Source of the DNA: a virus
Length of the DNA: 53,261 bases
Reading direction: 5' to 3' (one strand)
Virus record (IMG/VR): IMGVR_UViG_3300025646_000056
Span: 1-53,261 of that record
Positions 1,182-17,055 of this stretch are shown here, piece after piece. A program made the translations under genes and the position numbers. Position 1 is the first letter of the stretch, and every line of letters starts with the position of its first letter. The notes under the pieces are model-generated. The model was given only the letters and a program-made list of their open reading frames with translations. It did no database searches and was not told where the DNA came from.

Positions 1182-1210
1182 AGAGGGGTCTTCGGACCCC
1201 TCTTTTTTTT
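1182..1210 (+). terminator. Rho-independent terminator of gp32
   Basis: A 9-bp perfect stem (AGAGGGGTC at 1182-1190 with GACCCCTCT at 1195-1203) closed by a UUCG tetraloop (1191-1194), followed by a run of eight T (1203-1210). It begins 20 bases after the gp32 stop. The reverse strand has no T-run after the stem, so it should not stop the converging tail operon, whose last stop codon overlaps the T-run. Confidence 0.95.
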
Positions 1211-2990
1211 ATGCAAGTCTAAATCCAGAACCAAAGATACCAGCGATTGAATCCGATTGTCTTCTCTCTGGTGAGGTATAGACAGTGGTGGAAGAAGCGT
1301 TAGTAATGGTATCTCCCTGACGAATATTTTGTGATATTTGCCCCTGTCCAGTTTCTTTAATTTCTGTTTGTAACTCTTTTGATGTTACTTCGGATGTTTC
1401 AAGATCACTTGCACCTACATTCACACTACCCATCAATTCTGGTTTTGGTGTGATTTGAATGACATGCCTTAATCCAGCGTCATCATTGTGTGTTATCACT
1501 TGGATATCTGTGACTTCTTTTAATTGTTCGTCTGAAGCCGCAGAGAATGCTGGATTGGTTTTTCTGAAAGTTTCGTATGCTTCTGTTATTGAGTCCCTGT
1601 AAAACTCTGTTCGATCATATGAAGAAACAAATTCGTTTCTTCTTTTCATTAATTCATTTTCTTCATCTGTATACGTTGGTCGTGAGACACCAAATGCACC
1701 AAATCCCGGAGTTGCACTAGTACGACTTATATACTCAGAAAGTTTCTTATCCGCTTTTATCAAAGTTTCTGTTTCTTCTTGTGTCAGGCTGTCTAAGAAT
1801 TCTTCCTTTGCAACTTGTTTAAGAACTCTCTCACTTGTAATGGAATCTGAGGCTACAGTTACTGTTGCTCTTCTGTTTAGTCTATTTTCTCTTTCCTGTT
1901 GAAACTCTTCTTCTGTTATTAGAGGTTCTAAATTCTCTCTACTGAATATTTGTTTTGCTTGAGCAACTGTAACCGTTTCCAATGACATGGTAGATGGATT
2001 TAATATAGAAACTAATTGATCCTCTTCCTTAGATGAAAGGACCGTTTGAGTTTTTTCATTTTCTTCGAGTAACATCGTTACTAATTCTGCTTGTGTCCCG
2101 CTGAATCCTCTCCCGAACAATCTTCCTTCTTCCCTTTGTTTATCTAATGATCGTTGTTCTGATAACATCGTCTCTGTTTCTTTTTCGATATTAACAAGGT
2201 CTTGTATACCTTCGAATATTTTATATGCTAAGACTGCGATGGTTGCACCCAAAGCAACAACACCAAGAACCGCAGCAATTGGACCCAAAGCTGCCATTAA
2301 AGTTGTTCCTAATCCGCTCAACAATCCTCCAAGAGAACCCAAAATACCACTGAAGGAAGCTAATAAAGCCTTTGGATCTTTGAAGAAACCGAGAAGAGTA
2401 CTAAAAATACCTTTAGATTCTTCTTGATCTTCTTTTATACTTTCTGTACCCTCTACGATCTTTTCTTGTTTTCTAGAATTTTCTCTTTCGTTTTCTAGAC
2501 GATCTAATTTATCGAATTTTTCATTTGATCGTCCTTCCATCAGTATTTGTTTTATTCCTTCTAGTGTCGAGAGCATTTGCACAAATATATCAGAGTTTGT
2601 ATTGTTATCCTCTGGTGTTTCTATGATCTCATTTTTCTTTCGATTTTTTTCTGTCGGCGTTCCTTCCATGTCTGATATGTCAGAACCATCAGAACCTAAA
2701 TTTTCAATGTTTAATTGTTTCTTTAATTGTTTTGCTTCTAATATTCCCTTCAAATCTTTGAAGATACCCATTCCTACTTGAACTTCTCTTGGTAAGAACC
2801 TAGAAAGATTAAATCTACCGATGGTTTGTTCTTTTATATAAGAACGAAATGAAGCTGGATCGTTTTTGGTTAAATTCTGTTCTCTCTTTTTTTCACTTGC
2901 TTGTTTAGCGAGAAGTTGATTTAACTTCTTTATCTCTTCTGTGTTCTTTTTTCGAGAGTTTGTGTTTTCAGTTGTTGATGGGTCGGCCAT
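1209..2990 (-). CDS. 29: Tail tape-measure protein (gp29-like)
   Basis: Probable tape measure and baseplate-hub protein, which sets tail-tube length and is ejected or released at infection. It has 593 residues, almost exactly the length of T4 gp29 (590), which would predict a T4-like tail length. The first ~190 residues are Lys/Glu-rich and helical-looking. Residues about 195-260 form a long Gly/Ala/Leu/Val hydrophobic stretch typical of tape measures, and the rest is charged and mostly helical. It is the last gene of the minus-strand block and directly follows the gp26-type chaperone with its -1 frame extension, the canonical chaperone-tape measure order of long-tailed phages. The start ATG is preceded by AAAGG. 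I see no strong sequence match to T4 gp29, so the call rests on length, composition and position. Confidence 0.72.
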   Translation of the reverse strand: MADPSTTENTNSRKKNTEEIKKLNQLLAKQASEKKREQNLTKNDPASFRSYIKEQTIGRFNLSRFLPREVQVGMGIFKDLKGILEAKQLKKQLNIENLGSDGSDISDMEGTPTEKNRKKNEIIETPEDNNTNSDIFVQMLSTLEGIKQILMEGRSNEKFDKLDRLENERENSRKQEKIVEGTESIKEDQEESKGIFSTLLGFFKDPKALLASFSGILGSLGGLLSGLGTTLMAALGPIAAVLGVVALGATIAVLAYKIFEGIQDLVNIEKETETMLSEQRSLDKQREEGRLFGRGFSGTQAELVTMLLEENEKTQTVLSSKEEDQLVSILNPSTMSLETVTVAQAKQIFSRENLEPLITEEEFQQERENRLNRRATVTVASDSITSERVLKQVAKEEFLDSLTQEETETLIKADKKLSEYISRTSATPGFGAFGVSRPTYTDEENELMKRRNEFVSSYDRTEFYRDSITEAYETFRKTNPAFSAASDEQLKEVTDIQVITHNDDAGLRHVIQITPKPELMGSVNVGASDLETSEVTSKELQTEIKETGQGQISQNIRQGDTITNASSTTVYTSPERRQSDSIAGIFGSGFRLA

Positions 2991-2992
2991 TC

Positions 2993-3187
2993 TTACATAC
3001 CTTTATTTTTTCTTAATCTTTGTTGTTCTTTCTGTTCTCTGATCCATTCTTGCAGTAGGATTATGTAAATTTCTCTTTCAAACGGCCACATTTCCTCTAG
3101 TTCTGTCAAGGAATAATTATGATGTTTCATCAAGGCAAAATTCAATTGATAATAGTTGGATATCGATTCGTGGGATAGGATCAGATA
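2993..3187 (-). CDS. -1 frameshift extension of the gp26-type tail assembly chaperone
   Basis: An open frame of 64 codons, in the -1 frame relative to the upstream gp26-like gene, begins at the last T of the T7 heptamer (3187) and ends with TAA at 2995-2993, three bases from the tape-measure ATG. In this frame a stop lies just upstream of the heptamer (the TAA in GGAGGTTAAG), and no ATG or GTG occurs before the internal Met at codon 20, which has no ribosome binding site. The extension is therefore best explained by frameshifting, giving a fusion of about 301 residues (237 + 64). The sequence contains FALMKHHNYSLTELEEMWPF followed by EREIY and a charged helix. This matches the usual pattern of tail-chaperone extensions, a His-containing helix then an aromatic/acidic 'W-P-F-E' turn and a Lys/Glu-rich end. 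The role is to hold the tape measure and recruit tube subunits. It may correspond positionally to T4 gp51. Confidence 0.75.
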   Translation of the reverse strand, partial: YLILSHESISNYYQLNFALMKHHNYSLTELEEMWPFEREIYIILLQEWIREQKEQQRLRKNKGM

Positions 3188-3897
3188 AAAAAATCTTGTA
3201 TATCCTTAACCTCCAGTAACTTCTCTTCGGTTGGACATGAAACTTTATCTTGATATATTAAATATGGAGTAGAGTCAAAAAACTCTTCGAGTAATTTTAT
3301 TTTATCGACTGGGAAATTACTAACGAAATCTTTTAGTTCTTCAAAGTCCACATCTTTCGGATCATATACTGTGTCGTTGTCCGCAATTGATTTGATACTT
3401 CTAGCAATTGTTTCGATGATCAATTCAATGTGGTTTTCTTTCGATAACGACATTACATCTTCAATATTGAGAAGTCCCAGTTTAACAACAATTCCATCTG
3501 CAACATTGAAACTTTTTTCTGTTGTGTTTTTTGCATTCATGCACTTGATGTTATCAACATCAAACTCTACATCTATTTTTGTCCCACATGGGCATGTATA
3601 TTTCGCTTTGACTTTATCACCAACGGAAAGTGATCTGAGTTGAAGACATATGAACATAAAATCTGCTAAACACAGTTGCGAAATATCAATGTCTGTGATC
3701 ATACAAGATTCTATTAGTGTTCTAAATTCTGATAACATAAAGTTATCTACTTCATTTTTTTCTAAAACTTTTGATTGTTCAACAGCTAACAAAAGATTTT
3801 TCTGTTCCTTGACAGTGAAAGGTCTGATCTTTACTTTCTTTTTTAATACTGGTAGTTTTATTTCTACCTGTTTTAATGCAATCGTGGGTAAACTCAT
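3181..3897 (-). CDS. 26: gp26-like baseplate hub assembly protein / tail assembly chaperone, short form
   Basis: 238 residues, belonging by appearance to the T4 gp26 'baseplate' family. In T4 gp26 is needed for hub assembly; here its position between a tube-fold protein and the tape measure suggests a tail assembly chaperone. The N-terminus is a beta-rich segment (residues 5-30, KLPVLKKKVKIRPFTVKEQK), then a helical region. A small Cys cluster follows (CPCG at 102-105 and Cys119) that could bind a metal. The C-terminus ends in Asp-Phe-Phe-Ile at the slippery T-run. The ATG has a GGAG ribosome site 5 bases upstream. Most ribosomes should stop at TGA, while a fraction shifting -1 make the longer fusion described separately. 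Confidence 0.82.
   Translation of the reverse strand: MSLPTIALKQVEIKLPVLKKKVKIRPFTVKEQKNLLLAVEQSKVLEKNEVDNFMLSEFRTLIESCMITDIDISQLCLADFMFICLQLRSLSVGDKVKAKYTCPCGTKIDVEFDVDNIKCMNAKNTTEKSFNVADGIVVKLGLLNIEDVMSLSKENHIELIIETIARSIKSIADNDTVYDPKDVDFEELKDFVSNFPVDKIKLLEEFFDSTPYLIYQDKVSCPTEEKLLEVKDIQDFFI
3187..3214 (-). promoter_or_regulatory. Programmed -1 frameshift site (T TTT TTT) with internal Shine-Dalgarno-like sequences
   Basis: Read on the minus strand, seven T (3193 to 3187) lie in phase as T TTT TTT, so that both tRNA-Phe codons can re-pair after a one-base backward slip. The zero-frame stop TGA is only two codons downstream. Two Shine-Dalgarno-like sequences lie upstream on the mRNA: AAGGA (3207 to 3203), 9 bases before the heptamer, and GGAGG (3214 to 3210), 16 bases before it. 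Such internal sites are known to stimulate -1 shifting (as in dnaX). No convincing pseudoknot was found downstream. Confidence 0.75.
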
Positions 3898-13848: not shown

Positions 13849-16800
13849 ATGACTAACTATAATCGAAATAAAATCTCAACATCAGTTCCAGAAAATCTGC
13901 CGGATTTTGTTGTTGAGCAATATCCAAAGTTTGTTACATTTGTCGAAGAATATTACAAGTGGTTAGAATCACAGGATAATGCTTATTTTGCACCATTAAG
14001 TTTGAATGGTTTGGTAGATTTAGATACTACTGTAAATGATTTTGTTGATTATTTTAAATCTTATATCTTTCCAAAGTTCCCAGAAAAAAATAAATCAAGT
14101 AAAGGTGATGAACTTGATGTACGGATCACACTGAAAAAGATTCGTGATTTTTATCAAGCAAAAGGAACAAAAGATTCTATAAAGTTTTTGGTTAGATTGC
14201 TTTTTGATGTTTACTCTGAAATATATGTTCCATCCGAGGATATCTTTGTTGCATCTGGAGGTAGATGGGATCAACCGAATATTATTCGATGTCTAGACAC
14301 AAACCCTGCCAGAAATTCTACTCTCAGAAATCTTAGAATATCTTTTTATGATTCAAATGGTAATTCAACTGGGTCTGCTAGAATCAAAGACCTAAAGCAA
14401 TTCAGTAGGAATGGCAAACAGATAATAGAATTTGATTTGATAGAAATAATTGGTAATGTTGTTTATCCAGGCACGATGAGAGCAAAAACTAATCAGGGTG
14501 AGAATATAAACATTTCTTTGATTAGTATGGTGGATAAAATCACGGTTTCTTCCAAGGGTTCTAATTATTCTCTCGACGATACGATAGTAATTTCAACAAC
14601 CTCTGGTTATTCTGGTGTATCTGCGAAGGCTTCTGTTCAGTCTTTAGACAAAAACGGAGGTATTCGATCGATTCGAATTGATGATCCGGGTCTGTTTTAC
14701 TTTCCAATTAACAACCTTTTGCTTCATTATACTTTCGATGTGACTAGTCAGACAGGAACTGGTGCGAGTGGTTTCGAAATTTATACTTCACCCCTTGTCA
14801 AAAAACCAGGCGTTTATCAAAATAATGACGGACAGCTTTCATCCACCGAGAAACTACAAGATAACTTTAGATATCAAAAACATTCTTATGTTGTTCGAAC
14901 AGAAGCCAACCTAAATGAATATAAGAATACCCTACGGGATCTTGTTCACCCCGCAGGAAAATTGTTACTTGGTGATTATTTTGTTTATAGAAACCACCAA
15001 ATACCATTGGATGCTGCTGGTTTTGGATTGTTCTGTGTTCAAGAACCATTCTTTGCTAATTATTTCCCGTATAGTATTGCAACACTCGAAGATGGTGCTA
15101 CAACTGAAGTTGGAGCGTTTGGTATTCTTCCTTCAGACTTTGACCTTCGAGGTGTTTCGACAGAAGGATTGCAAGGTTCTAATCAAGATCCTCCTTTCTA
15201 TTTTGATTATTTTCCTTTTGGATATGATGGAACAACTGGGTATACGATTGCAGACGAAGAAAGTGCGAGGTCATTACTCGGTGATGGTATTTCTTCTGGG
15301 TGGAATGTCCAAAACTTTAATAGATTCGGTGGTCAAGGAGCCACTTTAGAATTCTTTGCACGAAAGAGAATCAACAAAGCGATTATAAATTTCTATCAAG
15401 AACAAAATGATAATACTGGTTTTTATAATCATCAAAATAATGCTTTTTCTGTTGGAGAATTTGTACATCAAGGAGAAGATGGTCCAAATCAGGCAAGAGG
15501 TAGAGTTCTGAAGTGGAGAGGAAATCCTCTTGCGAGCACTCCTGGCACTCTTACGGTTGAAGTCCTTAATGGTGAATTTGTAACTGGAGTAGACCCAGAT
15601 CAAATACCAACAGGAAATACTCTCGGGTGTATTGCATATGGACTCACTCAGGGAGAAGCATATACAGGCGGCGGAAACCTAAAAAGCATCATTCAATTCT
15701 GGACAGGTGATACCGCTTCTATTCATAATGAGAATGCGTTTTCGCCTGGAGATGTTGTTTATGAATACAACTCTTCCAGTGATGGACCGCCAAGAGGAAC
15801 CGTTCTTGGTTGGAGCGGTGGTACTTACGGAACACTTACTATTCAACTCACAAGATCACCAAACGGAATTCCAGCAGAATTCAGTGGTGATACCGATCCT
15901 GATAACTCAAACTACACAAATAGAATTTCTTTCGTGACAAATGGAGGAACGGCATACACAGGCGGTGGCGTCCTTGAATCTCTTATAACTTTCAGAACAG
16001 GCGGAAATACACACGCTGATGATGCTTTCACGATTGGTGCTACAGTTTCTCAAGGAGATGCTCAGGGAGTAGTTATAGGGTGGACTGGTGGTACTTACGG
16101 GCAACTTACACTCGAAGTAGTTACTGGTGATTTCCAAACAACAACAACTTCAACTGATCCTTTATCCGAATTTACCACAAACCATGAAGAAAAGATAATT
16201 TTAGGAGCCGATGGTTCAACATACACGGACGGGGGAAACGACAGAGCAATAATTGCGTTCTGGAATGGATTAACGAATCACTCTCCTTCTGCCTTTACCG
16301 TGGGAGAAAAGGTCCATCAAGGCGAGTTTGGAGACGATCAAGCAAGAGGAACAGTTATAGGATGGATTTCGGCTTCGGCTGCTCTGACTCTTAGGGTAGA
16401 TAATGGTTCCTTTAGAACCGGAACTGAAGGTGAAGTTCCAACTGATGTCACTACTGGGTGTATAGTTTTTGGTGAAACCACGGGAATCCCATACACAGCA
16501 GGTGGTTCTTCAGATGGAAACTCTGGAGGGTATGTAATAGCTCTTCTATCGACTGAAAATTTTTACAACGGGGGAATCGTCGAAAGTGTAGTAGGATTGC
16601 CCGGACATTCTGGTGGTCATATCTTATCGGTGCAAACTGAACCATATAATTATGGTGGATTTGTAACAAATCTTGTTGAATCATATTCACTTGAATATAC
16701 TGGATCAACTTTGCCTGGATGGCCTTCAGATAATAATGATTTTTGGATTGTTCACCCTCATCCAAATACATGGCATAAAAATGTATCAGAAGGAACCGGT

Positions 16801-17055
16801 TGGGGCGATATTACGATTGGTGATTTTATAAAGAGCTCTGCTAAGTTAACTTCACCTCCTATTCGTGATTTTGAATGCGATTCGACACAAACATCAAATG
16901 ATTTTTTTTTTACTCAACCAATGACTTCTCCTAATATCATTTCGTATGATCTAACGGGCGAATTCGTAGAAGAACCATTCAGTCTTACATATGATATTGA
17001 GAGTCCTACTTCATATACACTGAGAAATGAGTGGCATATCCTTCCACCAGAATGA
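13849..17055 (+). CDS. 7: gp7-like baseplate wedge protein with four added C-terminal repeat modules
   Basis: 1068 residues (T4 gp7: 1032), but rearranged. Residues 1-370 match the C-terminal part of T4 gp7: LPDFVVEQYPKFVTFVEEYY near the start, FYQAKGTKDSIKFLVRLLF near 105-123 (T4 'STKGIEASYKFLFKVLY'), and DLVHPAGKLLLG near 364-375 (T4 'RFVHPVGFGF'). The large N-terminal part of T4 gp7 has no visible counterpart. Residues 528-886 hold four copies of a beta-rich module, and the end (980-1068) is another beta domain. The wedge-core role is inferred from the first part and from neighbours gp6 and gp8; the repeats could be surface decorations or carbohydrate-binding. A run of ten T near 16902-16911 encodes Phe-Phe-Phe and is a slippage-prone site. 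Confidence 0.75.
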   Translation: MTNYNRNKISTSVPENLPDFVVEQYPKFVTFVEEYYKWLESQDNAYFAPLSLNGLVDLDTTVNDFVDYFKSYIFPKFPEKNKSSKGDELDVRITLKKIRDFYQAKGTKDSIKFLVRLLFDVYSEIYVPSEDIFVASGGRWDQPNIIRCLDTNPARNSTLRNLRISFYDSNGNSTGSARIKDLKQFSRNGKQIIEFDLIEIIGNVVYPGTMRAKTNQGENINISLISMVDKITVSSKGSNYSLDDTIVISTTSGYSGVSAKASVQSLDKNGGIRSIRIDDPGLFYFPINNLLLHYTFDVTSQTGTGASGFEIYTSPLVKKPGVYQNNDGQLSSTEKLQDNFRYQKHSYVVRTEANLNEYKNTLRDLVHPAGKLLLGDYFVYRNHQIPLDAAGFGLFCVQEPFFANYFPYSIATLEDGATTEVGAFGILPSDFDLRGVSTEGLQGSNQDPPFYFDYFPFGYDGTTGYTIADEESARSLLGDGISSGWNVQNFNRFGGQGATLEFFARKRINKAIINFYQEQNDNTGFYNHQNNAFSVGEFVHQGEDGPNQARGRVLKWRGNPLASTPGTLTVEVLNGEFVTGVDPDQIPTGNTLGCIAYGLTQGEAYTGGGNLKSIIQFWTGDTASIHNENAFSPGDVVYEYNSSSDGPPRGTVLGWSGGTYGTLTIQLTRSPNGIPAEFSGDTDPDNSNYTNRISFVTNGGTAYTGGGVLESLITFRTGGNTHADDAFTIGATVSQGDAQGVVIGWTGGTYGQLTLEVVTGDFQTTTTSTDPLSEFTTNHEEKIILGADGSTYTDGGNDRAIIAFWNGLTNHSPSAFTVGEKVHQGEFGDDQARGTVIGWISASAALTLRVDNGSFRTGTEGEVPTDVTTGCIVFGETTGIPYTAGGSSDGNSGGYVIALLSTENFYNGGIVESVVGLPGHSGGHILSVQTEPYNYGGFVTNLVESYSLEYTGSTLPGWPSDNNDFWIVHPHPNTWHKNVSEGTGWGDITIGDFIKSSAKLTSPPIRDFECDSTQTSNDFFFTQPMTSPNIISYDLTGEFVEEPFSLTYDIESPTSYTLRNEWHILPPE
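15430..16506 (+). repeat. Four tandem protein-coding modules in the gp7-like gene
   Basis: Copies begin at 15430, 15724, 16012 and 16279 and end at 15675, 15969, 16236 and 16506, thus 82, 82, 75 and 76 codons. Each starts with His-x-x-x-x-Phe then a V-G-E/x-V-x-Q-G pattern, continues with R-G-x-V-x-G/K-W and an L-T-x-x-V strand followed by N/G-x-F, and ends in Tyr-Thr-x-Gly-Gly. They are similar mainly at protein level. The spacers (about 12-16 codons) also share an 'I-I-x-F-W/R-T-G' motif, so the true unit is about 95 residues. Confidence 0.85.

Follow-up and report, generated by a model that had tools for sequence, protein, structure and literature searches.

A probable −1 frameshift in the gp26-type TAC gene of a distant T4-like phage, with a slippery heptamer conserved among its relatives

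Genetic Organization of the gp26 Locus

The window analyzed in this study, i.e., the whole stretch of 53,261 nucleotides of the IMG/VR record IMGVR_UViG_3300025646_000056, encodes on its minus strand, in this order, a head-closure-type protein, a protein called DNA end protector, a tail-tube-type protein, gp26, a −1 frame extension of gp26, and an ORF of 593 aa (Table 1). The gp26 product was recognized by PF12322 (T4_baseplate; E = 1.9e-39, 136 bits at a cut-off of 24.5, residues 11–237) as well as by the profile of phrog_150 (baseplate hub; E = 1.5e-45, 156.8 bits), and its identity to the gp26 proteins of related phages amounts to approximately 25–33%. A second gp26-type copy was not found in the window, the record possibly being a fragment.

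The 3′ end of the gene reads GAT TTT TTT ATC TGA, corresponding to the C-terminus ...KDIQDFFI*, and the phase of its T_TTT_TTT heptamer fits a −1 slip by two tRNAs. Read through the slip, the −1 frame continues as DFF-YLILSHESISNYYQLNFALMKHHNYSLTELEEMWPFEREIYIILLQEWIREQKEQQRLRKNKGM*, with 64 residues past the second Phe, and the predicted fusion product (TAC-NC) would comprise 237 + 64 = 301 aa. The initial annotation of this DNA had listed the in-phase T run close to the gp26 stop, the AAGGA and GGAGG motifs 9 and 16 nt upstream of it, and an open −1 frame of 64 codons ending 3 bases ahead of the next gene. All of these elements were located; the extension does end just ahead of the next gene, whose ATG lies at position 2990, with a gap of 2 and not 3 bases.

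Among the 41 non-overlapping ORFs in the window, each at least 100 aa long (17,038 codons), gp26 alone was found to have a T6-type heptamer at most ten codons from the stop that is followed by a long extension in an open −1 frame. Only one further slippery pattern was present close to a stop; this sequence, AAACCCA, is followed by just 13 codons in the −1 frame. Furthermore, a run of ten T was noticed at positions 16902–16911 within a baseplate-wedge-like ORF of 1068 aa (13849–17055, plus strand), 47–48 codons before its stop; this run may represent a slippage site or a sequence error.

Table 1. Genes and sequence features around the gp26 junction in the window.
Feature	Position	Strand	Remarks
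Head-closure-type gene	5641-5195	minus	
phrog_429 gene, called DNA end protector	5198-4545	minus	
Tail-tube-type gene	4548-3910	minus	
gp26 / TAC-N	3181..3897	minus	238 aa, zero-frame product; stop TGA 3183-3181
GGAGG, second SD-like motif	3210..3214	minus	16 nt upstream of heptamer; outside conserved spacing
AAGGA, SD-like candidate 5′ stimulator	3203..3207	minus	9 nt upstream of heptamer
Slippery heptamer T_TTT_TTT	3187..3193	minus	gp26 phase; one codon (ATC) between run and TGA
−1 extension (TAC-C; gp51 family), P0002	2993..3190	minus	65 residues from second Phe; stop 2995-2993
Internal ATG, −1 frame	3128..3130	minus	site used as gp51 start by annotators of relatives; without ribosome site
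Putative tape measure protein	1209..2990	minus	593 aa; one strongly hydrophobic stretch, residues ~223-262

Proposed Assignment of gp26 to the Tail Chaperones

In phage lambda, the tape measure is bound by both the short and the long product, gpG and gpGT, the latter recruiting the tube protein by its extension (PMC5009743, PMC4493119). The arrangement in the window is alike, with predicted short and long products, a probable −1 slip close to the 3′ end of gp26 and the tape measure candidate downstream. However, the slip sequence of lambda differs from that of the window, and the likeness is one of arrangement.

The AlphaFold model of gp26 (pLDDT 93) was compared with known and predicted structures using Foldseek. 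Among the PDB matches listed, the HK97 tail assembly chaperone (TAC) 2ob9 reached the top probability (0.25–0.28; E = 2.4–3.0, not significant), and the viral predicted structures matched were those of gp26 and of certain gp51 proteins from T4-like phages. The search with the gp26 profile against PDB sequences gave no match. The model is only suggestive of a TAC fold. Downstream of gp26, the 593-aa ORF resembles T4 gp29 (590 aa) in length, position, and the placement of the principal hydrophobic segment near residue 237; sequence matches to T4 gp29, to the downstream ORFs of the relatives or to any named tape measure were not detected. Position and profile are only suggestive of a tape measure protein. 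In the annotation of Caulobacter phage Cr30, the tape measure follows two genes downstream. Because the downstream ORF lacks sequence similarity and the 2ob9 match was not significant, the chaperone role is one that we infer.

In T4, gp26 and gp51 are classically named hub assembly chaperones, gp51 being essential and absent from the particle (PMC3004832). This nomenclature, with which the PHROG names agree, would also fit proteins acting in hub assembly in another sense and not as tape-measure chaperones, the frameshift then serving hub assembly. However, the gene sits just upstream of a tape-measure-like ORF, a short and a long form produced by frameshifting fit TACs, and the TAC assignment in T4-like phages has already been published according to papers citing it; we therefore consider this alternative improbable.

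Conservation of the Slippery Heptamer in Related Phages

Relatives were collected by two scans of IMG/VR, one by extension and one by gp26, and complemented with named phages, resulting in 159 non-identical loci and in 140 representatives sharing less than 85% ungapped identity. The comparison of gp26 junctions in related phages, suggested in the initial annotation as a search for a conserved in-phase slippery run, showed that all 159 loci share three elements: gp26, a T_TTT_TTN run in its phase, and a homologous extension in the −1 frame. The heptamer was represented by TTTTTTC (99 loci), TTTTTTT (51), and TTTTTTA (9), and was usually positioned one codon ahead of the stop. The same pattern was obtained for the 70 loci recovered with gp26 alone as query, a search blind to the extension; the only locus of the gp26 scan without an extension (L129) merely reaches about 30 bases past its gp26 match.

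The first Phe codon is TTT, and the codon before it ends in T, in all 140 representatives. The heptamer occurs in 140 of 140, compared to approximately 68 expected from codon usage given the residues (log10 P of about −45, a value that is too small because the sequences, which are not independent, were treated as such, the direction being clear). The heptamer is conserved beyond the amino-acid constraint.

The −1 Frame Extension and Its Annotation as gp51

The extension was matched in 568 phage records by tblastn, and most of the matches listed begin at residue 1, directly at the slip site. It matches phrog_634 (“baseplate hub assembly catalyst”, gp51) with E = 1.1e-23 and 84.8 bits over profile positions 56–118 of 121, and also the C-terminus of phrog_150. 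Annotators of relatives list it as a short gene of its own under the name “gp51 / baseplate hub assembly catalyst”, usually starting at the internal ATG; the initial assumption that gene callers would leave this region empty is contradicted by hundreds of such annotations.

According to these annotations, which cover most relatives, the extension would be a small gene of its own, gp51, starting at the ATG (3130–3128) or at a TTG (3145–3143) and perhaps translationally coupled to the gp26 stop. The position of the ATG is indeed largely conserved. However, a ribosome site (SD) was found at the first ATG of the extension in just 2 of 139 sequences, compared to 109 of 137 at the gp26 start. Moreover, in the 140 sequences the 17 codons between the slip site and the conserved ATG are kept as −1-frame protein, their variation being of the −1-frame coding type and highest at third positions (entropy of 0.97, 0.72, and 1.48 at codon positions 1, 2, and 3, respectively), and the same stretch read in the zero frame contains a stop in 140 of 140. 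The coding constraint reaches back to the slip site, 5′ of the internal ATG. A separate gene would furthermore give the heptamer no reason for its invariance, and T4 has the extension only within a longer fused protein. Because ribosome sites are rare at the internal ATG and −1 coding variation continues upstream of it, an independent start was rejected in favor of a fusion, a separate gene being regarded as highly improbable. The sequences show the extension to be coding and to lack an independent start, in line with the initial description of an open frame with no usable start.

What annotators of hundreds of cyanophage and related genomes list as a short gene, “gp51”, is very probably the −1-frame half of the fusion. 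Since gp51 is then very probably no gene of its own, those annotations and the phrog_634 family need revision. The conservation result provides a large independent sample confirming this reading of gp51.

Proposed Frameshifting Mechanism

The gene in the window is very probably a TAC gene of a T4-like phage, in which a −1 frameshift at the T run would produce a fusion of gp26 with the extension (TAC-N/TAC-NC). This reading, already put forward in the initial annotation, agrees with the occurrence of the junction in 159 of 159 loci, the coding sequence upstream of the possible starts, the lack of an internal ribosome site, and the make-up of T4 gp51. The majority of ribosomes would read gp26 to its TGA, yielding TAC-N of 238 aa. 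In a minority, the Phe-tRNAs occupying the P and A sites would move one base back along U_UUU_UUU, and the slipped ribosomes would read on in the −1 frame and produce TAC-NC of 301 aa. Many TAC-N and few TAC-NC would be expected to coat the tape measure encoded directly downstream, as in lambda G/GT, while the extension would attract subunits of the tail tube; the chaperones would be expected to depart ahead of tail completion. The slip and its rate are what we infer from the arrangement of the two frames. In E. coli constructs, U_UUU_UUU was described as slipping weakly (PMC5009743), although a chaperone pair requires slippage of just such low efficiency. The FF junction offers proteomics a defined peptide target.

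An SD-like motif located 7–12 nt 5′ of the heptamer was detected in 92 of the 140 representatives, compared to 54.4 ± 5.5 under a synonymous null (300 draws, maximum of 73). SD-like tetramers occur at 3% of other gene positions, and in the relatives they cluster 8–11 nt upstream of the heptamer. By analogy with E. coli dnaX, where a −1 heptamer is likewise preceded by an SD-like element at a distance of about 10 nt, this excess suggests a 5′ stimulator, and the SD-like sequence approximately 9 nt upstream probably aids the slip in the window phage. The dnaX site consists of A_AAA_AAG and a strong 3′ stem-loop, whereas no significant 3′ stimulatory RNA structure was found in the window (z = 0.2; 0.6 in a script-based estimate); the relatives showed a mild excess of 3′ structure, with a mean z of −1.3 compared to −0.5 elsewhere in the gene.

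A frame switch at the level of transcription, with the RNA polymerase slipping along the T run, for which the 7 T of the window and the 8 T of 18 of the 140 relatives could speak, is disfavored by runs of just 6 T (T_TTT_TTC) in 93 of 140, by the phase always being the one required for tandem tRNA slippage, by the SD-like element at 7–12 nt as a ribosomal feature, and by the length of about 9 A or T described for bacterial cases (PMC5009743), and is considered very unlikely.

Relation to T4 and Other Phage Lineages

Literature looked up under gp26/gp51 frameshifts provided nothing relevant at first. The TAC genes of T4-like phages were identified by Vladimirov, Gautam and Davidson (2022; Virology 566:9–15), as cited in the PRFect paper for some T4-like phages having separate short and fused TAC genes (PMC10885494) and in the phage Adele paper for poly-T −1 signals in T4-like TAC-N genes (PMC12846349); a 2016 review still gave T4 as the exception (PMC5009743). 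Going by these citations, T4-like TAC genes and their poly-T frameshift sites were already on record, which corrects the initial annotation, and the window phage shows no difference of principle from the published systems. Since the mechanism has already been published for T4-like phages, the window phage represents a well-supported new, distant example and not a new type of system. The TACs of Vandenendeviridae/Andersonviridae, described with phage Adele (PMC12846349), likewise feature a conserved T-rich −1 site, a −1 frame that stays open ahead of the tape measure, and annotation as separate genes; their motif is GTTTTT, compared to T_TTT_TTN in the window phage and its relatives.

A fusion profile built without T4 matched T4 gp26 (2e-22), the match ending in FF, as well as T4 gp51 (4e-11), where it covered a gp26-like domain and continued into the extension. 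The initial assignment of gp26 and gp51 of T4-like phages to the same system is thereby corroborated: T4 gp51 is composed of a gp26-like domain and the extension, and T4 therefore holds the two forms as two genes. The gp26 domain and the extension at the gp51 end are common to T4 and the window phage. However, the short and long forms of T4 derive from separate genes on opposite strands (L009, 7429–6803 and 7480–8229), whereas the window phage has one gene. Gene 26 of T4 ends with GAG TTC TTT GAG, and the slip site is considered lost because GAG TTC TTT stands at the matching place. Frameshifting is reportedly conserved in several T4-like groups, T4 being said to have separate genes. T4 genes 26 and 51 can be read as descending from the short and the long product of one ancestral frameshift.

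In Pseudomonas phage PspYZU05, gp51 is likewise full-length, and no −1 extension follows gp26. In Ackermannviridae (Det7 and Magnus), the −1 extension after gp26 is conserved (L008, 3780–3965; L181, around 2301), and the candidate slip site G ATT TTC is non-canonical, breaking the X_XXY_YYZ rule. Tentatively, and with somewhat less than even confidence, it may be proposed that the TAC frameshift of marine T4-like phages is set mainly by the SD-like element at its conserved spacing, 3′ structure being slight or absent, that T4 and its close kin swapped the frameshift for gene duplication and lost the heptamer, and that Ackermannviridae keep the −1 extension with the non-canonical G_ATT_TTC.

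In Rhizobium phage RL38J1, a gp51-type extension lies within the annotated end repeat of 320 bases (L182, 1–320), and the junction is therefore situated at the start of the record. Acidovorax phage ACP17 features T_TTT_TTC and a −1 extension (L015, 2166–2423) in the unannotated region between gp26 and the next gene.
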